Of a stretch of 64,000 bases of DNA, positions 7,202-45,300 are shown one piece after another. Each line of letters opens with the position of its first letter. Within the stretch, counting starts at the first letter, position 1. The stretch covers positions 4,092,001 through 4,156,000 of the forward strand of contig OZ004582.1 of assembly GCA_963924555.1 (NCBI GenBank), read 5' to 3'. The notes under the pieces are model-generated. The model was not told the origin of the DNA. It searched no databases and saw only the letters and a program-made list of their open reading frames with translations. The stretch is from Crambe crambe (lineage: Eukaryota; Porifera; Demospongiae; Poecilosclerida; Crambeidae). Position numbers and translations under genes: made by a program.

Positions 7202-10200
7202 TTATGTACTCTTCTAATTCCACATAGCCATCCCTGTTCTTGTCCATATCCACCATGGTCTCTTCTATGACTATGTCTCTCATATGTTGAGCTTCTTCTG
7301 CAGTAAATATAATTCATTATTCAATTGACCACACTAAGCTACAAAAGTAAAAACATTTCTAACAAAATGTCAGATCTGGGGTCACTGGGGTCACTATGAC
7401 ACTGGGGACACTGGTATCACCGGTGAGTCGAGTCACTGGGGTCACTGGTGACTGGTGTCACTGAGGTCACTGGGGTCACTTGGGTCACTGTGGTGACTGG
7501 GGTCACTAGGTCACTGGGGTCACTGGGAACACCAGTTACCCCAGTAGTCACCGTAGTCACTCGGGTAACTGGAGTGACTAGGGTCATTGACTGGGGTCAC
7601 GGGGGAGATTGCGTCACTAGGGACACTGGGGTGACTGGGTCACTGGGGTAAATGGGGTAACTGGGGTCAATGGGTTCACTTGGGTCACTGGTGACGAGGG
7701 TCACTGGTATAAGAACAAGGTACCAAAGTCAGTTACAGTGAAACTTGTATTAAGAGACCACCCTATTCAGAGACCACTCTCTTTAAAGAGCACTTGGTTA
7801 TGTCCCAATAGTGCTCGTAACATACATTTTGACCTCTATAAAGATATCACCTCCATTAAGTGACTATAGAGAGGTTTCACTATATAAGCTGGAAAGCCTA
7901 TCCTAATTTCCTTATAACCATGTACAAAGCTTTTATGGCTGACAGTTATCTTAGTGCCTTTCTGCTTCTGCTGGCCTCACTTATCTGTGTTTGCTCAGAA
8001 ATGGCTAGCATAAAGTATGCATGTATAGGCATCTAATTACATAGCTTGGGGAGCAATGGCTAAGAAGTAGAAAATTACAACAGTACTATGGAAGGATGAA
8101 GCTCTAGAGTGCACGAAAGAACAGAAAATTACTTGGTTTATTTGTTTTCTACTTGGTATGACTGCACACTATATTACATTCATAAACAGACCGGATATCG
8201 GACAATTTTCAGTCCGGGTAATACCGCGCATGCTCCTGAAGACGAAATGGCTGGACGAGAGCCAAGTTTAGGGAACATCATTGATGGAGCTATGCTTGTT
8301 CCAGAGTCAAAGAGGAGGATTGTATCCATCAAGACAGTTGAGAAATGGGTCGTTGAGAACGAAAAGGCTCTCTCTACAATCTGAATCAGTAGTGGATTTG
8401 CATGCAAACTGAATGAACAATTGTACCAAACTCTGTTACTTTCAATATTGGTTTCTATGAGGGACAGAAACATGCTAAAACGTGGATACCGTAGGGCGGG
8501 TCAATTTTCCGGTTATTCATTGCACACGTGACTAGGTAAAATTGCTCTTGACCAGACAAAATGTCCGATCAAGGTAAAAAGAGGCTATCTTCTAGTGAAT
8601 CTAGCACTAGTAGTCCTTGTTTTCAGCCACTATCAAAGAAAAGAGCAGTGCCTAGAAGGACAGTTAAGAAATGGATGAGAGAAAACATCAAAGAACTGAA
8701 CACTTCACTTTGGCTCAAGTTCAATATGGTCGATCACGATCATGTAGCAACACTAAGGTGCTCAGTCTGCTGTCAATTCAAGAATCTCAGGTCTGCTTTC
8801 ATCGATGGCACTACTTGTTGGACTGGCCTCTTCCAAGAACACAACTCCAACAAAGACTTAAGCACAGAGCCACTAGACTAATTAAAAGGACATTACATAA
8901 TCTATATTGTGACCAGGTAACAGGAAAATCAGGCATAACGCAGCATTAAAAATTTTTTTGATTTGTTGATATCTGTTATCTATGGCCCTTTGGCTCTCCA
9001 TTACGCAAATTTCAAAGCTTCAGGTCCTTTGATGCCCGAGGAACAGCTCTTAAAAAACTCTAGGTAGCGTCCATTAGCGTTTTAATTTTTTTAGAGAAAA
9101 GGCTGAATAAGCAACATGAACATCATTTCTGGCCATGCTCGTGCACTATCAAATTGAAGTGGGCAGAGCCTCGAACTAGAGTTAGAGAGAAGCTAGTTTC
9201 GCGCCTCCTGACGCTAATAAGTACCAACTAAAGCCTAGAAAGGAGTAACAAGGTACCGAAGGTAGCGTAGAAAGCTTAGTTAGTTCACATTTCCAAGCGT
9301 ATAAGCTAGAAAGCCTACCTTAGTTCTGGTGATTTTCAGCTGCTGGATTTTCCGTACACGAAGGTTTCATGGCTGACTAGCTAACTTTAGCACTTCATTT
9401 GAAGCCTTTCTACTTTAATCTAAGTTCCAAAACTTGGTCAAAAGTTTGTTCAAGGATCATAGTTTTGATCTACACAGAAAAAAAATTTTTGTTGAATAAA
9501 TGGCATGACTCGCTAAAATTACTCCTACGTAGAAAATTGTTCTGCCGCGTTATGCCCGATTTTCCTTTACCGGGTCACATTTAGTACCAGTTGTACTGTT
9601 AACTTGATTTTGAATTATGCAAGTATTGTATAGCCCAGTGGCGTTAGGAACAGATACCTGCACTCTGTGGGCTGCTTCTTAACCCAACATTGGTGGCAGC
9701 AATTCCACCTACTCACAGGCCATCGACCAGTGACAGAAAAATCCCAAGCAGTAAGGACCCAGCCTTCTAACTGGTGACTCAAAATCCCAAGTGGTGAGGA
9801 CCCAGCCTCCTATATGGAGACCTTCTCTTTGTTGCACAAAACTGCAGCAGCAAGGAAAGGTTTATAAAAGATTTCACCAGCTGTTTTAACAGCTCAACCA
9901 GCTATCTTTTTGCAGTGAAGCCGTCTAAGACACCACCAGGACTAGCCTGGCCAACAACACAACCAGCTTCTTCATCTACAACAGGATCTCATTGCAAACT
10001 GGCTACTCAGATGCAGAAAGAAAGATAACCACCACCACCATTGCTGGACATGTCAAGATATTCAACCTCTCTACCAGTACAAGAAACTCCTACATCACAA
10101 CAGCTCCAACATTACTTGGATGCATTGGAACAAAAAGACAGAGAACTGATAGACAGTCTGAAGAGGCACAAGGAGTCTCTACATGGACCTAGCCTGCAAA

Positions 10201-13200
10201 CACACAAGCAAGCTAAATTTCACTCTGTTTCTTTTACCAATCCTTACTGGCAAGAAATGCTACAACACAGACATGAAGAAGAAATGCACCGACTACTCAG
10301 TGGTGGAATGCACAGACAAGCATCAGAATCTTCCAGCTCAGAAGAGGAAGGAGCACGGCAAACTCCCCCACCAGCACCACAGCAACCAGAGTACCGAACA
10401 CTACCACAAGAAGGTACAATAGAATTACTGCTGCACCAAATGCAGCAAGACAGAGAAGCTAGCAATAGAAATATGGAATCTCTAGTACAAGCCTTAGCTT
10501 CAAACCAGCTTAAGAAATCTAAAATGGATGCCATTGCCCAATGTCCTCAAATGCATTAAAGAGGATGTGGTAGAATACCTACAAATGTTTGAGGAAATTC
10601 AAATTGCAAGGGGAAATCCCAAGGAAAATTGGACCCACTCCTTAATTCCACTGCTCAATAAAAATTGCAAAGCGGTAGTATTAGGACTGCCATCTTCAAC
10701 CAAGTATAACTACAAGCTATTCAAAGCTGAGGTTCTTGCCACAGCTTCACATAAGCACAGACAAAGCTCTAAAGGGAGCATGAAAAGAAATCTGGCTCAA
10801 CCTGGAGAGAGGTGGCCAATGCTTTAACAAAGAAAATCAGACTTTTCACACCTAGCCCAGAAACCAAGTTGCTACTGAAAAACTCATACAACTTTTGCCA
10901 TTTAAAGCTCAAGCTTTTGTGCGAGAAAGAGAGCCTAAAATTGTTACTGAAGCAGCTGATCTAGCCTCGTCTTATTTCTATTCTCACAACATGGATGAGT
11001 TCCATTGGGAGCTCACAACTATAAGCACAAACCTGCAAACCTCAAAGACAGCTTCAAAGAAAAATAACAAAATTACTCTCATCAGCAACATCAAAGCGCA
11101 CTTTGCTCACAAGCAAACTCACATGTCACATGGCATACCTGATCTTCAACAACTACAGCTTACTAATCAGTCTTCAAGGCAAACTAACCACACTGCTAAT
11201 CAGAAGTGCGCTAAGTAGGGACGGCAGGTCAAAGTCCATAGGACTGTAAACTAGAAACTCTCCTTTCTCTTCAAGCAGGAAATTGGGAGTTTTCTTTCTT
11301 ACCCTTACTCTACAGGTTCTCAGAAGGCTACAGTGAATCATTACATCTACAAAGAAGAGAGGAAAGTGTTTAAAAATCTAAAATTCATTCGCTAAGATAC
11401 GAAAAAAACGACATCTAAAAATTGACTTTTGTTCAGTTTGTTCATAATAATAATTACTGGCTGCAGCTATGACATTGAAATTGTTGCGATCTACTCTAGC
11501 GCTACTTCCAGGCGTGCCTTTTGCTATTTGTTAGAACTAAAAAGGCTTTATTCCAGAAAAAAGGCACGATTCCAGCTGTGTACTATATAGCCTATACTCC
11601 ATATAATGCACACTCTGTGCTGCCGACCATTACCTACTTCATCTAGGCTATACTACAAGGTGAATTGATTAGAACAGCATAAATCTCAGATAGCTGGAGT
11701 ATCTTTAGTTACAAGTCTACGACGGCTTTATGCATTATCTAGCTGCTGCAGTATTACCTGCATGCTTAATCAGTTCACCAAGCAGTATATTTTTACATCC
11801 GATGATTCAAAATGAGAATGTGGAGTCTGTAGTACAGACACTGCTAGCTAGCTCAACAGTATTGAATGCTATTATAGATGAAAATATCTCTGCTCAATAT
11901 CCACAAACACACACATATAGTGTGCGCAGAGGGTTAGCACTTCAGCACTTTTCATTATAGCACTGCTCATTTGCACTGCAGATGCTCATCCCCCATACTC
12001 TCCTCCCTCAAGCAAGACAACCAAATCTGGTAAACTCAATGGACTCAGGAGCTGAGAGTGCCATAAGTACTAAAGATTTATTGCCTGATAGTTTTATTCA
12101 GTACATGCCAGTCATAGTCACAGATGTCAACTCACAGGAACAAACCAAAGACCTGTCAAACAGCCATTTTCCCTGCTGAAATTGATGACACAAAGTCCAG
12201 ATGTTTGAAGCAGTAGTCGATAGGAAGGACCTACCACGCCCATTTATCATTGGGAGATCCATCCCTGGATTGGAGATAGACCATCAGAATGCAGGACACA
12301 GTGGAGGACACTGGTGAGGCAGGAGAAAGGGCCAACCAAGTAGTCCAGGAGAGTGACGACCCAGCTGCCTCCATACAACTGCAAAACAGCCACATCCTGC
12401 AGGGCAGACCAATCAACACCTTCCAGCTGCTCCTACTAAGACCTCATCAACACCTTTGACTCTGGACTTTGAAAATATGACAAAGGCAGACATTGCTGCT
12501 GTCAGAACCAGAGCTCAAGCAAGAAGAGAAATACAACAGCAGCAAGACAATGCTGCTACAGCTTCATCACAAGCTCCCATCACTCCATTGGAAGCTATAC
12601 CAGACCTGGATGGCCCAATCCCAGCAGAAAGATCTGGTAAGGGGTCACAGGAAGAAACAATAGATGCTCCTCAGAACAACATACAACAACTGGAACACGA
12701 ACCAGATACCACGCCTACTCAGACATACCCAGCGGATAGACCTGGCAATGTGGAAGAGGAGAGTGTGGCAGAGGATAACCCTACCAATCAACCAGAGCCA
12801 GACTATACAGTGGTTACTGCTCCATTCAACACTGCAACACTTATTGAAGAACAAAAGAAGGATCCACAGCTGAAACCAATGTTTGATGCAGCAGCTAATC
12901 CACTGCAGACAGATTTCATCATCAAGATTAATGTAGGACATGCCTGTTCAGGTCATTTGGTGCAAAAAAGACATGGCTACATATCCAACAGCATTTTTAC
13001 TGGCCTGGCATAGGCAAAGCTATCCAACAGCACTGCAAAGTCTGCATCATTTGTGCTAAGTTCAACAACCAGCCATCCCGCTGAAACGTGTGGACACGCC
13101 CACTACTGCTGAACCTTTACTCTCTGTATTCTCAGCCCATGGCACACTAAACATAATAGTTCACGACAATGGTGGCAATTTCACCAGTCAACTCATGACC

Positions 13201-16200
13201 AGTGTTTTGAAAGCACTCAACATACAGATAACAGTTTCCCCCTACCATCCACAAGCAAATGGGATGTGTGAAAGATTGAATGGTACTATCAAAAAAGCAA
13301 TAAAGAAGGCTGGTGCCACAGAAAAATTGTGGGACAAGTGGCTACACTTGTGTTGTATTCTATCAGGATCACACACTATTCAGCAACTGGTCACTCACCA
13401 TATGAGTTGCTCTTTGGCAGAAAGCCAAACACTCCTATCTCAAGCCTTATAGCAGCTTTAGAAGGCAGCAAAGATGACATGCCACAGCCTATCTCAGACT
13501 ATCTTAACAACTTACACGGAACAATGGCTCGAGCTAAAGCAACAGCTGAAGAAATTGAACAAGCTACTAAAGAGTCTTCGAAAGCTTACCAGGATAGCAG
13601 AAACAAAGCAAAAGAATATCTACTTGAGCCTGGCACGGCCATACTCTGTTTTGAGCCTTGCAAAAAGAAAGGCTTATCTGCTACTTGGCTTGGACCATAC
13701 ACCATCAAAAAGAGGCTTGGTTCACTCACCTACTTGGTTGACTTAGGTCATGGAAAGACCTGTAGGAGACACAGAAATGCTCTAAACGTCTTCTCTCCTG
13801 CAAACATGGGTTGTTCTGGCTATGCCAGATGAAGAAGCAGCAGATGGTCTATCATTGGGACCACTGGCTGAAGAACCAACCACAACTGATTTGCTCTCTG
13901 ACATAAAAGGAGCTGAACATCTTGATAAACAACAGCACCAACAACTTACTGCTTTACTAACTGATTTTGCTGATGATATTCCAGATGCAGCTGACCTACC
14001 TACCTACCATTTGGATACTGGACAAGCACAACCAGTCTGCAGGAAACCATACAGGCCAGCATTATACTGGAAGAAAAAGATTGAAGATGAATTACAGGAA
14101 CTACACTCTAATGGGATCATCAGGCACTCCAATTCTCCATGGTTGAGTCCTATCATGGCTGTCCCAAAGAAAACAGGAAATGTAAGAATCTGTGTGGACT
14201 TTAGAGCCATCAATAGCCTCACTTTACCAGATAACTACCCATTACCAAGGATAGATGACCTCGTCGCTACTGTGAGTTCAGCTACATACTTAACTACACT
14301 GGACCTCAGTAAAGGCTACCATCAGGTTAAACTAACCCAAGACACAATACAAAAAACAGCCTTTATTGCCCATTGCGGCAAATTCAAATACCTCAGATTA
14401 CCATTTGGATTGTGCAATGCTCCTGCCCATTTCCAACGGTGCATGGATGCTGCTCTAGCTGATATTCGAGCTCATGCCTATATTGATGACATTATCATTG
14501 CTACAAACACCTGGCAAACTCATCTAACAGTTCTCTCTCAAGTGCTTCAAAGATGAAGAGACAAGAATATCTCTCTTAAGCTGAAAAAGTGCCATTTCTC
14601 ATCAGCAATCATTGAATATCTTGGCCATACAATTGGTTCTGGCTCTATCTTGCCCCAACATGCAAAAGTTGCAGCTATCTTGGAATTTCCATAACCTGTC
14701 ACACAAAAGCAAGTCAAGTCTTTTCTTGGTTTAGTTGGCTATTATAGGCAACACATCCTGCCTTTGCCTCCATCACAGCTCCACTCAATGCCATATCTGG
14801 TAACACCAGTCCAAGAATGGTAACTCACTAGCTTTTGCTTTCCAGCAGACTAAAGATGCTTTCATGTCTGCTTCAGTACTCTCGGCTCCTGACCTTACCA
14901 CATCCACATGCATCCTGATGCCTGCTCAACAGGAATAGGTGCAGCACTAACTCAAGTTGTAAATGGTCACACCAACGATATTGCCTTCTTCTCAAAACAG
15001 TTAACAAAAGCTGAAACATGCTATTCTGCTACAGAGCTTGAAACTTATGCCATAGCTTGTGCTTGTAAATATTTTGCTGTTTATCTGTAAAGGCCCCCAT
15101 GGTGGAGAGGTATCCCAGGCTCTGCTGAGAGAATCTGCAACAATGTTCTCCTTTCCAGGTACATATTTGATGTCATGAGGAAACTGTTGAAGAGTTCCAA
15201 CCCATCTCATCAGTCTTTTGTTATCATTCACCATGGTTGAGAGGTGTTGAAGAGGTTTGTGGTCCGAGAAGATTCTCACAAAAGAACCGTTCAGGAAGGG
15301 GAGATGTTTGGGCTGGCCTCTTCCAAAGACACAACTCCAACAAAGATTTAAGCACAGAGCCACTAATAGCTAGCTTTAAAAGGTATGACTGTGAAGCAAA
15401 TATAAACGTAGAAGCTATAAGCATGTAGCTATGGCTAATTTAATTAGAGGAAGCTAGCTAAGGTAAGGTGGGGCAATCATGAGGGTAGGGCAATTCCGAC
15501 ACCATAAAAAAAAATAGTGATATTCCAGTCAAGACTAATTAAAAGGACATAACATAATCTATATTTAGTACCAGACCGCACCCACTTGATTCAGTTTTTA
15601 CTTTTGGGCAGTTGTACTGTTAACTTGATTTTGAACTATATACGTACTGTATAGCCCAGTGGCGTTAGGAACAGATACTTGCACTCTGTGGGCTGCTTCT
15701 TAACCCAACACTACTAACCTTCGTTTATCTACGGTTAAGGAGCATGCAGGAACGGACATGCACGCTCAAGCTATGCTTCTATTTAAGAAGCACCAATTGT
15801 CCAATGTATGTGACTACGCACCAATCGCTAGGTGCCTGACTCAGTCTTCCATGGATTCTGCCACTACCAAAAGAACTAAAAAGGAAAACCTGGCATTCAC
15901 CAAAATGAAGTCCATAAGCAAGCTGGAAGAACGGCATGGTGTTAATTTAGAAGGTGGGTATAAAAATGACCAAGCCTGTTGTTAAGTTTATTGCTCGTGA
16001 GCAGCAAAATTCACTGATAGCAACCCTATCAAAGTCAAACTTTTTTAGCATTCAAGCTGATGCAAGCACAGATTCTGGCAATGTGGAAGTGGAAATGTAC
16101 TTGGTACTTCACCTTGATCCCTTCTCTGAAGATGGAAAAGTTCATGTGAGAAGCAGATTTTTCAGTCCAAGACACCTTAGCAGTATGACAGGTGAAGATC

Positions 16201-25200: not shown

Positions 25201-28200
25201 TGGTGTGGGTGATTGGGATGATGGGGGTGATGAAGTGGGAGAAGAATGGTGCTTTGTGGGTTCGGGACATGTAATGTCTCGGCAATGTTCTGGGCAAAAT
25301 TCTCGTATTTTGTCATAAAGATATTCTTTACGCTCTTGAGAAAGACCAGGGGGCTTGATTTCAGGGGGGAGCTCTGATGTAGACGGAGTCCAACTCATAT
25401 GCTCCTTGGTAAGGATGGTGAGGGTCTTGACTGGTGAGTCAGTTGATACTTACTTTAACTTGTCCAGGGTGCTCACATGAAAACACCAAGTGGTGAAAGG
25501 ATTTTATGCCTGCCAGCCCTTGCCGTTTGAAGTACTTGGCAAAATATTCTGCCCAGTTGTACTGATGTACTATCACCGTCCCGTCCTCCCTCCCAATAAG
25601 CTGGGCATTGTTCACCACAGCAGAGCTTTCGACCAAACGGACGATGTCATCGAGGCAGCCCACTTTTGTCCGCCGGTAAGCTTCCTTTAGCAGCCCAAAA
25701 CACCAGTCTGGTGCAAACTTGGTGTGCCCAACAATGAGAAAGGAAATCTCTATACGCCGATTTAGCCCAGCCAAAACCCTCCATGCAAGATATTGCATCA
25801 TGAAGCGGTTTTTGTTTTGGCCTGAGCAGTTATCGGCATGTATACAGAGATTTCCTTCCCCAAGGTTGTGCGTGGCCAAGAAATGATGCTTCAGTTAAAG
25901 AAATATCTAAGTATTAATTTTCTGTGTTCAAACCTGCTGTGCCATATCGAAACTGTAATGAACTGTTACGTCGTGGCTAAGAGGCAACAGGCTGGCATTG
26001 ATTGTGGGTACTGGCAATTCCTTGTCTGTGAACAGCTGCTTGATGGCAAGTTTGGATAACTCCACCTGGTGTTTTAAGTAGCTCCTTGCCTTGGTAGCCA
26101 GCTCAAGATGGTCCTGGGCTTGCTTCACAATCTGATGTTGATTTGAGGGAAATAATTTATTATTATCACTTTAAAATGATAGTTCTTACCTCTGACTTCT
26201 CACTCTCAGGTGTGTTGGCGGCCCTCATCAAAGCTGTGGAATTTTGCTGGCACACCCAACAAAGATCACTCATCGGTTTCATTACAGTGATATGAGGTAC
26301 CAGAGTCCTCCAAAGTGTGCAAAAAGTGTTGTAGGCTACAAATCGCAAGCCAGCCTCCTCACAAGCAAGCTTGTAGATCACCCAGACAGACTGAGTCAAT
26401 GATACAAAGGTCATGATTGTTGAGTCCTGCATTAATAATGTGAGATACCTTCTTGGTAGTGCTTGAGGGAAGTAGCTGGAGGTCATCCCGCTTATACCCA
26501 GGAATCCGGCCAGGGAGAAGTATGGCGAAGTTTTCTGCATATTCCTTCAAAAACTTCTTGACATTCTCCACATCACGAAAGGAAAGGGCATTGTAAGGGA
26601 GCCGTCGGTGGTTACCATGCTGTCGCAGGGTGAGACCAGTTGCCGCATAATGGGACTTCAATGCATGGAACCTATCCTTTCCTAAAAAGGTTAGCGGTGA
26701 GTAATCTTTGCGTACAATTAACTAATTTCTTGGTCGTGTTTTTTTTGTTTTTTTTTTTTTTACCAATGTCATGCAGTGCTAGGAATGTTTTCTTGCAGAT
26801 CCTAACTCCATGGTGGTAGAAGGAGACTCTGGTCCGCTGCCGAGAAGTAAGTGGGTGCCTGGACTTTGACCCCACGTCACAACTATCGTCTATCCCTGCC
26901 ATGATCTGCCCTAAGACGACTAGGTCCAACTCATCGTGTGTGAGGGTGCAGCACTGATCTAGTACATCCAGGTAATGTTGGTAGCTAAACAAAGTGTAGC
27001 ATGGCCCTTTTGTACCATTTCGGTTATTCAACTTGCAGCCACATCCATTACTACTGAATAACTCTGCTAGTCTCTCGTGTGGTGTGGTGTATCGCTTATT
27101 ATTGGGAGTCGGCAGGGACGACTGAGAAGAGGATGGAGTGGTGTGGGAGGATGTGGATGGCTGACAGACCTGCGACACTGTGACTGGATGAGAAGGCTGC
27201 GATACTGAAGGAGAGGGCAAGGACGAAGGAACAAAGGGCTCTGATTCTGGAGGAGAATGAGTCTGAAGATGTGGAGATGTCAGGGTGGTCATCCTGCTGA
27301 TGTGGATTGTACAGGTCGTCGACAGAGTTGTCAAAAATATTGATATCCTCCTCAGTAGTATTGTCACAAGGCTCTAAATTCAGTGTTAACTAGATAGTTG
27401 TTGTTGTTATTATTATTATTATTATTGTTGTACCATCTTCATCCTCATTGTATTCTCTGAGGTGGCCTCCAAAGCCTTCATCATCTTCGCCTATAATACA
27501 AAATTGAATGATTCCTGAAGTGGGAGGGTCGTGGATGTCTTATATCCATCCATATCCGGTTCCTGACTTCCCAGGTCAAAGTAATCGGCAATGAGGCCAT
27601 CCAGAGCTTCTCGGTCGGCCCCACCCACCAGGTCTAAGCCGTCACTTGCCCACAGGTTGAGCGCTCTGGCTACTTGTTCGGCACTAGACATTTCTCAGAG
27701 CAAAGTAAGAAGACCGAAAAGGCTGCAATATCTAACAGGTGAAACCTTCGCGCTGAGAACGCGCGCTTAAAGCGTGCTTAGCAACCATCCGTGTCACGAT
27801 CAGTAAGTGCAACTAACCAGCTGACTTCACGGGCTTATTTCACCCTCTTCTATGTTAGCAGAGTGCTTATAACTGTACAGATAGATAGTAGAAAGGTTCA
27901 AGATATCATTGTTACATAAATAAAGAAATGACCAAGAAATGACCTGTGATATAAAATTACCTATTGTGATAATAATGTTCACGCACGTTTAGGCGGATTT
28001 TCCTAAAACGGGTCACATATTTACATATTCTTTGTAGCAACTGTGTAAAATTTTATGATTCATAATGTCGTTACACTAAGCTGTCAGTTACACAAGAACA
28101 CAGCGCACAGAAGCTACTGTGCTACTTCTTTACACAAACTATATAGCAAGACTAAAGCAACCAAGCCTCGAAGCTATAGCTAGCCGCCTAGCAAAACGAT

Positions 28201-35063: not shown

Positions 35064-38000
35064 ATGCCTAGGAAGTTTCATTTAAGTGTCCCTCGTAAGA
35101 ATGAATTCAGAAAAGCACATGCACAACGTTGTACAGTATCTGTCCAGCACATCTCACCCAAACCTGAGAATGTTTGTATGGCATCTACTTCCAGAGAGTC
35201 TGATGAAGAATTGATAGTTTCAATCCCAATAGATGTAGTACATGATAGTGGGGTACTGAGTTGCAGAGGCGAATCAATATTTTGTCGATTTTACATGATG
35301 GTAAGCTGATGGCTTCTTATGAAAGTATAATAGTGGCTAGCTAACTTGTATACATAGTTGGTATTCTTCATTAATAAAAATAGGGTGGATTAATGTTTGT
35401 GCTGCCTCTGACACGAGTCCTAGAGGTGCTATTGTACTTACCAAGGTGGAAACAATGGATTGTGTTGCACAGGTATAGCTATAGCTCAAATATTGTTACA
35501 ATGTCATTAACTTTTTTTTTATGAAACAAAGATTCGCTACAGTATTGAGATCAATGGTGACTTCAAATGGACTCTACAGATTGGAGGAGATAAGATACCA
35601 TCTGATTGTCTAGCTACATTGCCACAAGTTCTCAGTTCAGTCTCCCATGTGAGAAAAGCAGTTGAGGGGCTGGAATGCTTCCATTTTTGTACAGGGAACA
35701 ATGACAACAAGTACTTTCCTATTCAGGCTGCAAGAAAAGGGGTATTTATGGATTCCACAGGTAAATTTAAAATTTAAATCATATAGATGTAGCAGTTCAA
35801 TTCCATACCATGCAGATTCAAAGGTAGTGGCGACTTTGGTCAAAGACCATTTTCCCTACCACACCATTCGAACTTCATCTTGTCGGCTCCTAGTACCCAA
35901 ACCCACTTTGCGATGTGACCACTGTAGTGCTCACAGAAAAATTTTGAACTCTATGTTGCATCGGCACCTGAAAAGTAGTGAGACTGATTCTAGCCATCCA
36001 GAAAGCCACACCAACTACAGGTTTCTGGGCACACCTGAAAAACATGAGCGGTTACAGCGCTTGCGGCAGAAAGCTAGGGTGTTAGAGTTGCATTGCAATG
36101 AAAGAGAGATTGGAAAGAGCAATAGAAGAGAGGGGTACTCAAGTGGATGCTGATCTACATGGCGATCTTTCCAACATCATGATCGAAAATTCACCGACAG
36201 TAACAGAGACATATCCACCTGATTCCTTTGCCCACATATTCTGGGAACAGCAGCACAAGGCTTCTTTAATGAAAGACTCTCGTTCTATGAAGTGGGAGCC
36301 TATGATGATTAGATGGTGCCTCTACCTCCGTCATTTATCGTCAAGTGCATATGAGACGCTATGTTCATCAGGTGTGTTGAAACTACCTTCACAACGTACT
36401 TTGAGGGACTACACGCATTATACCCAAGCAAGCTGTGGATTTTCAAGCGAAGTCGATAAGCAGATTATGGATATAGCTTCAATCCAGACATGTCCTGAAA
36501 GGGAAAAGTATGTTGTTATCTTAATGGATGAGATGCACATCAGAGAGAACCTAGTATATGACAAGTATACAGGTATAAGAACTATTATAGCTAAGCATGT
36601 ATGTATGTAGTAACAAGTTATCATTTACCAGGCGTACTGATTGGTTTCACTGAGCTTGGTGACATCAACACTCACCTGGAGTCATTTGAGCATAAAATTG
36701 AAGAAGACCATTCTGATGAAGTACTCGCTGATTCAATGCTAGTTCTTATGGTCAGGGGGTTGTTTAGCCAGCTGAAATTCCCATATGCTCAGTTCCCTTG
36801 CACTGCACTCAGTGGACATCAAATGTTTGAAATTTTTTGGGATGCTGTATGCCGACTGGAGCGTTGTGGATTAAAAATCTTAGCAGTAACATGTGATGGC
36901 CTCTCTGCAAACCGTAGATTGTTCCATTTACACAATCCAAGAGAAAAATTGACATACAGGACTACAAACCCATATGCCAGCGATGGTCGGTCGATTTTCT
37001 TTTTTTCAGATCCCCTCACCTAATGAAGACCACCAGAAATGCTTGGTTCAATAAGTGTCGTAAACTTTGGGTTAGTTGCACCAGATAATGCCTTAAAATT
37101 AATGACCATTGTTATTCCCCAATAATAGTGTAATGGAAAACCTATTTCGTGGTCTCATCTTATTACCTTATATGAGGTGTCAACCCAAAACTGATGCACC
37201 AAGTTTAAGCCTCTTACCAAAATTGAAGTTTGAACATATCAGCCTTACCAGTTATTCAAAAATGCGTGTGGATTTAGCAGCTCAAGTACGTAACTAAGAC
37301 CATAATATCAGACAGGGGAAGATTGGTTTAAATTGATTATAGGTACTCAGCAGCTCTGTCTCTAAAGCTCTAACACATACTTTGGGCAAGCCAGCAAGGG
37401 AGACAGCAAAATTTGTGCTGATGTTTGACAAATTTTTTGATACACTAAATGTCAGTAGCATTTCAGCTGGGCAGTTGAAAAGAAATCCTTTCAAAGCCCC
37501 CTTCCGTTCAGCATCAGATTTTAGATTGAAGGTAACAACTGCATGATTGTAGTAGCTATTTCATTTTAACTTATAATGATTAAACAGTGGCTGCAAGATG
37601 AATTTCTTCCCTATTTGGATGGTTGGGAAGCGAGTGTTCATGAGAGAGCTGAATTCTCAAAGAAGGAGAGGGAGATGATGCTGCTCAGTCATGAGACCAG
37701 AACTGGTCTTAAGCTTACTGGTAAGGTAGAATAACCATTACAGCTAATACTTTAAGTTTATGTATTATTATTACAGTTCGTTCATTTGTGGATTTGGTAG
37801 AATATGTCTTCACCATTCCAGGTGTTAAGTTATTCTTGAGTAACAGATTGTGCCAAGATCCTGTCGAGGGCTTCTTTGGACAGCAAAGACAAAGGGGAAG
37901 AGTGAATGAAAACCCCTCAGTTCAACAATTTGTTGAGAACACACGAGCGCTGCGTGTAATAAATGGTGTGTGTGGGCAAGTCCGAGGAAATTGTAGAGGA

Positions 38001-42300: not shown

Positions 42301-45300
42301 GGTGTTATCTTTGTTAGCCATACTTTGCAAGTACTTCTCAAACTCAGAGAACATTACTTTTTTATCCTCTGCTAAGGTGGTTAGTGTCACTAGAGAAGTT
42401 GTGCCTAAAGTTTTCCTCCTTTGCTGACTCCGTGTTGTTGAGGATATCTATCACCCTGTTTAGGAGGCTTGTTTGTGATCCTGCTGTTGTCAATGTACTT
42501 GTGTTACATGTAGTAGATGGAGGTTTGGTACATGTGGTAACCACAACTGTAGAATCAGTACATGTGGTAGCCACAGTGGATGTAGATGGTGGTCTGGCAC
42601 ATGAGGTAGCTACAGTAGATGTAGATGGAGGTCCTGTAGCTATAGTAACCACAGTAGATGTAGATGGTGGTCCAGCACATGCAGTAGCCATGGTAGATGC
42701 AGATGGAGGTTCAGTAGTAGCCACTGTTGATGTCACATGTGTGGAAGCAGATGGAGCAGTACCAAGAAATGAGTGCAGCATTGCTCTGTATAGTGCCTCC
42801 CAGGCTTCCAGAATGAAGTTATGGGTTCTTTTGAATTGGCTACATTCTTTGATAGCAGCCACTGGGTAGCCAGCTACCTCAGCGAGTGATTTCAGCCCGG
42901 CATCAAAGTATGGCTTCATTAAAGCCACCTGATAATTCATGAGCATATGCCAGTCCCCTGGGTAGGGGATCAACCAGCCCAACTCATCACTGTACTCCAA
43001 TTTTAGAGACTGCAACAACTCATAAATTTTGGCATCCCCTTCAACAACCAGATATTTGTTGCCCGTAGCTGTGTGTATAAACTCGTCATGGAGCATGGAC
43101 ATTAGAGTGTCTTTGCTGTCAGCCTTGCAATCCATAATATTAAGATAGAAAAAGTTTGATTTTTCTGTATGTGTGGCCCTGATGCATGAGAAGTAATCCT
43201 GTATACTTATTACTCTCTTGTCTGGTTGCTTGCCTGCAACTGCTACTTTCTGAAGCATATACATGTGCAGTTCACTCTTTAGCTCCATCACTGCAGACTT
43301 CTCCTGATCGTTAGGCAGAAAATCTGAGAGTGAAAGAAGTCGACTTTCCTTTTGGGCAGTGGCACTCATATGGAAGAAGGGGTGCTGGTTGCTAGAACTT
43401 TCAGCACGCAATTGTGAGTTATACTCGGTGCCTGTTCGAGGCTTCGGCTGCCTTTTAGCAGTTGGTCCTGCAGTATATGATGGTAATCTTTTCCTACCTA
43501 GTCTGTGAGTGATGTCATGGTTACAACTAGGTTGAGCAACTGGGGAAAAACTGCTATGTACAGCAGCCGTATTCAGTAGGGTATGATCACTGAATGCTCA
43601 TTCAATAGACAGTGCAAGTGATGGTAGAGGCTGAACAACCTGAATAGATGTTCCATGACAGCTGCTGTTATTTGAGCCTTTACTGACTCTTGCAAAGCTG
43701 TGTTTGAAGTCGATATTGTCGGCTGATACGATAATGAAGCTCTCACTATCTAGACACTTGATCTTAAGTTGCTCTCGATCTGTGTGCTTCTGTTGAATGT
43801 GCCTAGCCAGTGTGTCCATTGAGGCACATACTCCAAGCTGGTTCAGAAACTTGATGAGTGTGGCTGATCCCCCCTGGCCATCTATGATGGAGGTGAGTAA
43901 GGTATGCAGGGGTATTGTGTAGTTGTCATTGATGCAAAACATCACAGAACAGAAAATACAGAACATCCTCATAAGTTTAGTATGTTTGGTCTTGGGTGAA
44001 ACTTTTGTTGTATCTTTTTTCTCCCATGGACTCGTCGTTAAAAGGCAGATGGCTTCCCACAATATGGGATCAATATCAGCAATGAGCTCTTTTATGGTTG
44101 TATCGGATAATTCACAATTGTGTTTTTTGTTACTTGTTAAAAATGAGTTGATATGTGAGCATGCTCTTTGATTAATTTCTGTGAGTAATTTACGTCTGGT
44201 GTGCTCTGTATGCTCAATACTCATGCTGGTGTGCTCTGTATGCTTGATTTCATTTTCAGGGACCTGTTGTGCTTTTCGTACTTTCCATAGTGCTTGAGAT
44301 AGGGGTTGAGATAAATCACTGCCAGATCTAAATATAAGTGTGCCGAACTTTTTAACTTTGCATGTGTATTTCATGTGGTGCTGTAAATTGGTGGTTAAAG
44401 TGCTAAGGATAAGTTGTGGTGAAACAAGTTTGGGTATATCAATGTCCTCCTGTAGTTGGTGTGCTAATTTTGTAGCAGCAGTGGAGAACATGTCCTGGAT
44501 GTCTGGAAGCAGGAGAGCATTCCCCTGAAGTAGTTCCTTTGCCACAACTACAGTAATGGTTTTTAGTGAGGATTCTACCAGTTCTTCCACTGTGTGCACT
44601 GTGTTATGTACGTTACTTGATAATTTGATGATAATACCGTGTAGATCACTATCCTTGCTAATAGTTTTTTCTTCTTGTATAATAAATAAGTGTGAACGAT
44701 AACATGTATGACATACTTTATCCTGTTGTTTTATGGTGCCTTCAAAATTGGTGTGTTGGAATAAATGTTGTATTAGGTTAGGTTGGGGGCATAGTTTGGG
44801 GTTGGAATCTCTGCGGAGTGCTGTCCCACAAGTGACACAATGTCTTTGTACGGGGTGCAATTTTTTATATACCATATGGTAGTGATGTTTGCAGAGTGGT
44901 GTAGGGATTGGGATGGGCGAAACTTTACTCTTTAATCCTAAACCTCTAAGTACCGATTCCGTTTGTCCTTGTAATGAGGAAAACACTACTTGTTTGCACT
45001 CATCGATGCAACAGGTTGTTTGGCTGGTTGTTAGCAACCACCTAGGTGTATGGCTAGGATCTGTAAGTACCCTAGTTACATCCCTTCTGCAGGTTTGACA
45101 GATTACTCCATCATCAGGGACATCAAGGCTTGATATGTACCTGTAAGCCTCTACATTTTTCCACTTGGATGGTGTGCTCAGATGGACTTTTCCATGGCAG
45201 AGGTAGCAAGCTTCTGTGAGGCTGGTGGTCTGCTCTGTCATTGCACTATAACTATAATGTATTAGTACACTGATAATTTATTTATCACTTTTTAATGATA

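Follow-up and report, generated by a model that had tools for sequence, protein, structure and literature searches.

An old, inactivated Ty3/gypsy retrotransposon with integrase ahead of reverse transcriptase, very probably from the Gmr1-like branch

In this study, we analyzed a retrotransposon insertion at positions 8816-15710 of a 64,000-nucleotide stretch (hereafter the window) of the 9.7-Mb contig OZ004582.1, which belongs to a genome of 143 Mb. The insertion is a Ty3/gypsy element running from one long terminal repeat (LTR) to the other, with the gene order gag-protease (PR)-integrase (IN)-reverse transcriptase (RT)-RNase H (RH). Elements with IN upstream of RT are called IN-first below, and those with IN downstream of RNase H RT-first. 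It is very probable that an LTR retrotransposon from the IN-first (Gmr1-like) branch of Ty3/gypsy inserted here long ago and is now inactivated. The Gmr1-like clade, with Gmr1 of cod, is said to go back to Goodwin and Poulter. Excerpts of three papers describe IN upstream of RT in Gmr1-like elements (PMC2582038, PMC6238403, PMC3587641).

A previous sequence-only reading had placed IN upstream of RT, and this order was confirmed by Pfam and by tblastn with the pol sequences of relatives. The IN pieces lie directly upstream of RT on the same (plus) strand. IN (12956-13793) is spread over three frames, namely a zinc-binding piece (12956-13066), the core (13072-13353) and a GPY/F-like end piece (13347-13793), which were delimited by tblastn with the pol of L043, L046 and L052 and by Pfam. 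Although these pieces score weakly alone (rve, 18.6 bits against a cut-off of 32.6), they are 55-63% identical to L043 and L046 over 13072-13799, and 39-41% identical to L052. RT (13810-14553, plus strand) is open from 13822 to 14553 and matches Pfam RVT_1 there (E 3e-25), with no RVT_2 match in the Pfam scan; its best PDB match is Ty3 RT (E 3e-38). Beyond 14553 the frame is broken, and homology continues across stops to 15087, the RT-RNase H part (13810-15087) being 51% identical to L043 pol by tblastn.

The genome was searched with the window RT (150 matches; 150 of 533 candidates scored), the window IN (140 matches; 150 of 218 scored) and Pfam rve (150 matches; 150 of 586 scored). Each RT was then matched to the closest IN that lay on its own strand and no more than 4 kb away. 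Since the scored sets were limited to 150 each, the order counts are no census. Among the 150 scored RTs, including that of the window, IN lies upstream in 91 and downstream in 26, and 33 have no partner; that is, 91 of the 117 paired RTs are IN-first. For the 31 scored RTs at least 44% identical to the window RT, the numbers are 27 IN-first, none RT-first and four unpaired. Among the matches listed, the RTs closest to that of the window show only 61-71% identity (seven RTs, some of them partial). Frames of at least 1000 amino acids (aa) were found for 46 of the 91 IN-first RTs, and in 43 of these the matched part is free of stops. The Pfam order is H2C2-rve-RT-RNase H in L043 and L052, and RT-RNase H-H2C2-rve in L084. 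Because many long open copies carry the same order, the IN-first arrangement is real and not the result of scrambling. The search for intact copies suggested earlier thus returned long open relatives with IN first, rather than a normal order elsewhere and a rearrangement in the window.

The sequence-only reading also described IN as overlapping RT by ten bases. Whereas the order of the two genes stands, the overlap as a feature does not: it is most likely a frame break caused by decay, because the IN end and the RT start share one reading frame in 7 of 12 relatives (L011, L012, L041, L046, L048, L049 and L053; L053 is counted for its last IN piece, and a shared frame is not always one uninterrupted open reading frame (ORF)). 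They are in different frames in the other five (L010, L014, L044, L047 and L061). A conserved IN-RT frameshift, considered in view of the break shared by the window and L010, was rejected for the same reason.

Scanning bacterial and archaeal genome records yielded 80 further gypsy-like RTs (L089-L168) in metagenome-assembled genomes (MAGs) and isolate assemblies, which apparently represent eukaryotic contamination; in viral contigs scanned with an RT alignment, no relative was found. Of these 80 loci, 56 are RT-first, 19 have no scored pair and five have IN upstream. Four (L093, L100, L162 and L168) were discounted as IN-first elements: a gap of more than 1.7 kb separates the end of their IN from RT, and, judged by distance only, this IN looks like part of a neighbouring element. 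L106, which comes from a MAG belonging to Candidatus Thiodubiliella, has a frame of 1471 aa that encodes a zinc knuckle followed by IN, RT and RNase H. We take Candidatus Thiodubiliella to be a genus of mussel symbionts, and the L106 contig may be mussel DNA.

Phylogenetic trees of IN and RT were built after near-duplicate loci had been dropped by hand and short fragments had been removed. Among the integrases of this genome, with the tree rooted on copia, the IN-first elements (28 rows) form a single clade (support 93/88), and three RT-first elements (L079, L084 and L085) are nearest to it. A wider IN tree, to which L106 and 24 external RT-first elements (of the 56) were added, again gave a single IN-first clade (18 rows, 100/99.8). 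L079, L084 and L085 are separated from one another in this wider tree, and the sister group of the IN-first clade is thus not settled. The copia integrases are split from the IN-first and other gypsy integrases at 100/100. In the RT trees, a branch separates the IN-first elements from the rest at 95/86 (first tree, Ty3 not counted) and at 88/89 (second tree). Judged by these trees, the IN-first integrases are a single clade that belongs to Ty3/gypsy and is distinct from copia, and the RT trees agree more weakly. The window groups with L010 and L011 at 100/100 in the wider IN tree and 100/99 in the second RT tree; both genes therefore place it inside one IN-first group, and not in different ordinary gypsy clades. 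The Ty3/gypsy-like character first read from the RT motifs is likewise supported by the RVT_1 match, the Ty3 structure and the position of the integrases within Ty3/gypsy.

The capsid provides additional evidence. SCAN (PF02023) has 54 matches in this genome (best 80 bits, 52 over the cut-off). Of these, 36 are located upstream of an IN-first RT and none upstream of an RT-first RT; two more accompany an RT that has no paired IN, and for the other 16 there is no scored RT nearby. Counted per scored RT, SCAN is present upstream of 36/91 IN-first versus 0/26 RT-first RTs (Fisher p 2e-5, an overstatement because the copies are related and thus not independent). Outside this genome, nine Gag parts (eight from RT-first elements, and that of L153, which has no scored IN) gave no SCAN match at E 0.01, whereas L106 gave one of 19.7 bits. 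In the relative L088, a single frame carries SCAN (76.7 bits), zinc knuckles of the CCHC type and a protease match that is weak; it belongs to the 1502-aa frame that also holds RT. The first 200 residues of L088 match the SCAN domains of ZNF24 (phmmer E 2e-10), PEG3, ZNF42, ZNF174 and ZSCAN10. The domain is therefore alike in the L088 capsid part and in vertebrate zinc-finger proteins, but here it lies within a retroelement Gag and not in a transcription factor. Published excerpts liken SCAN to the capsid of Gmr1-like elements (PMC3406341, where Emerson and Thomas 2011 are named, and PMC4592553), and an excerpt on frogs reports SCAN in over half of Gmr elements, and in Gmr elements only (PMC4131045).

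Based on gene order, IN phylogeny and capsid, the element would best be filed as Gmr1-like, the named Gmr1 elements being compared by description. It shares with that clade the PR-IN-RT-RH order and the Ty3/gypsy RT and IN, and a SCAN-type capsid occurs in some of its relatives; on the other hand, the window copy is dead and its source possibly lies outside the reported phyla. With Ty1/copia it has in common the position of IN upstream of RT, whereas both enzymes belong to the Ty3/gypsy type. Compared with Ty3 and the RT-first gypsy elements, the RT, RNase H and IN families are the same, but IN of the latter is downstream of RNase H.

Several observations weigh against this assignment. The trees were built without published Gmr1-like sequences, so that grouping with the type elements rests on descriptions. 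When the first RT tree is rooted with Ty3, RT-first elements are nested within the IN-first ones (with L086/L087, 90/83), which then form no clade, although a tree holding the IN-first elements together against RT-first elements and Ty3 is not rejected (approximately unbiased test, p 0.43), and removal of three long rows gave a support of 64/90. Moreover, 55 of the 91 IN-first RTs, that of the window included, have no upstream SCAN in the scored list. The SCAN piece of the window is weak (14.8 bits, E 0.026, cut-off 27), and that of L106 (19.7 bits) is also under the cut-off of 27 and stands beside an equally weak Retrotrans_gag match (19.1); the L106 Gag gave no PDB match.

One alternative is that the IN-first order arose separately in the lineage of the window, which would then be Gmr1-like in its working and not a member of the Gmr1 clade. 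The missing Gmr1 reference in the trees and the weak deep branching of RT are in its favour. However, it is unlikely, as L106, whose record is of a different source, falls with the IN-first integrases (100/99.8), and the SCAN-type capsids that the frog excerpt limits to Gmr elements are found here only with IN-first elements. Similarly, we give little credence to the idea that the Gmr1-like lineage was acquired horizontally from another animal. Copies 99.2-99.8% identical over 3.4 kb are present on different contigs for some IN-first subfamilies, which implies that these subfamilies spread recently. Nevertheless, the IN-first elements are very diverse and occur on 17 contigs in the scored set, which suggests long residence. 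That the window copy is an ordinary RT-RH-IN gypsy element that was rearranged, as its inverted RNase H end and lost IN segment might suggest, is extremely improbable given the 91 IN-first RTs among 117 paired ones, 46 of these 91 having frames 1000 aa or longer. A gypsy/copia hybrid with a copia-derived integrase, suggested by the copia element L075 of the same genome that is also IN-first, can practically be dismissed, since the window integrase falls with Ty3/gypsy and the copia integrases are split off at 100/100.

For the Gmr1-like element as preferred here, the mode of movement would be that of LTR elements: transcription from the LTR, assembly of a capsid by the SCAN-type Gag followed by cleavage by PR, reverse transcription primed by a tRNA, and IN-driven insertion with a 5-bp duplication. 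The IN-first order may have arisen once, when the IN-coding segment, formerly behind RNase H, moved between PR and RT; in the resulting polyprotein IN would precede RT, as in copia.

The marks of insertion are two LTRs of the TG...CA form, a 5-bp target duplication, a primer-binding-site-like stretch and a polypurine tract, and the coordinates 8816-15710 given by the sequence-only reading agree with the full insertion. CTACT flanks the element on the left (8811-8815) and on the right (15711-15715). Except for the nested element and where stated otherwise, the features that follow are on the plus strand. The 5' LTR (8816-9689) differs from the 3' LTR (15305-15710) by two length differences and by a nested 672-bp element (8908-9579), whose imperfect terminal inverted repeats (TIRs) read TGTGACC...GGTCACA. 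The putative primer-binding site (9691-9708) is assigned by its position one base past the 5' LTR and its TGG start only. The polypurine tract AGGAAGGGGAGA (15293-15304) is located immediately 5' of the 3' LTR. Alignment of the two LTRs revealed 11 differences over 194 positions (Kimura two-parameter distance 0.060), a distance that would require a substitution rate for the host to be converted into an age.

The window copy is dead: an IN segment has been lost, frames are broken, the 5' LTR contains the TIR element and RNase H has its last part in reverse orientation. Presumed gag remnants in broken frames (10029-11215) are assigned by position and by the weak SCAN-like piece (10877-10975), and these pieces had no tblastn match to the loci of the eight relatives tried. 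The protease remnant (12039-12173), which has a DSG motif by eye, was recognized because it resembles the sequence that precedes IN in L041 (45 aa, 49%, tblastn E 1e-10), and had no Pfam match. Residues 362-413 of L043 have no counterpart in the window IN; this segment includes an Asp at aa 386, presumably the first catalytic Asp of IN. RNase H starts on the plus strand (14893-15087; Pfam RT_RNaseH_2, E 4.8e-16) and ends on the minus strand (15130-15297; L043 aa 1102-1157, E 5e-15; Pfam 29.7 bits), where the residue order of L043 continues, as expected for an inversion in place. A short inversion in place is also present in another decayed copy, at the RT start of L047 (L047 1885-2148). The nested TIR element, the IN deletion, the frame breaks and the short inversion would all postdate the insertion.

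The element interrupts an ORF that appears transposase-like by eye only, with its left half at 8552-8815 and its right half at 15716-15982, both on the plus strand. When the flanks are fused minus one CTACT, a single open frame runs across the insertion site; therefore, the element was inserted into a coding frame. The pieces of this ORF that were scanned had no Pfam match. To the left of the element is a minisatellite-like array of GGTCACTG-type units (7376-7706). Elsewhere in the window, we observed ORFs matching DUF7869 (25439-25894, minus strand, E 4e-16), a TNP-like RNase H N-terminal domain (36086-36607, plus strand, 24.3 bits against a cut-off of 24.6) and DUF6589 (42365-43597, minus strand, E 1e-9). 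In silicatein, a serine takes the place of the active-site cysteine position of cathepsins. The two best cathepsin-like ORFs of the genome (L077) have CGSCW with the cysteine, and resemble ordinary cathepsin L, not silicatein, which does not speak against a sponge as the host.

The sequence-only reading regarded the Gmr1-like group as described from deuterostomes, which is outdated because crustacean and annelid reports exist. In the excerpts concerned, crustacean elements were reported in 2013 as the first in protostomes (PMC3587641), the annelid Lamellibrachia was added in 2021, with cod and Ciona also named (PMC8220671), and the clade is said to occur in several phyla (PMC8556966). The hosts given in such excerpts are thus fish, frogs, a tunicate, crustaceans and an annelid. 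In the excerpts and search results from the open-licence literature, there was no report of Gmr1-like elements from a sponge.

Taken together, the IN-first order is a trait of a diverse and in part recently active lineage, and not the oddity of a single copy, and the SCAN-type capsid travels with this lineage. The identity of the host would date both. If the host is a sponge, we tentatively suggest that early animals already had the IN-first branch together with its SCAN-type capsid, that parts of the branch are still spreading in this genome, and that the SCAN domain of vertebrates may come from a capsid lineage far older than the vertebrates themselves.

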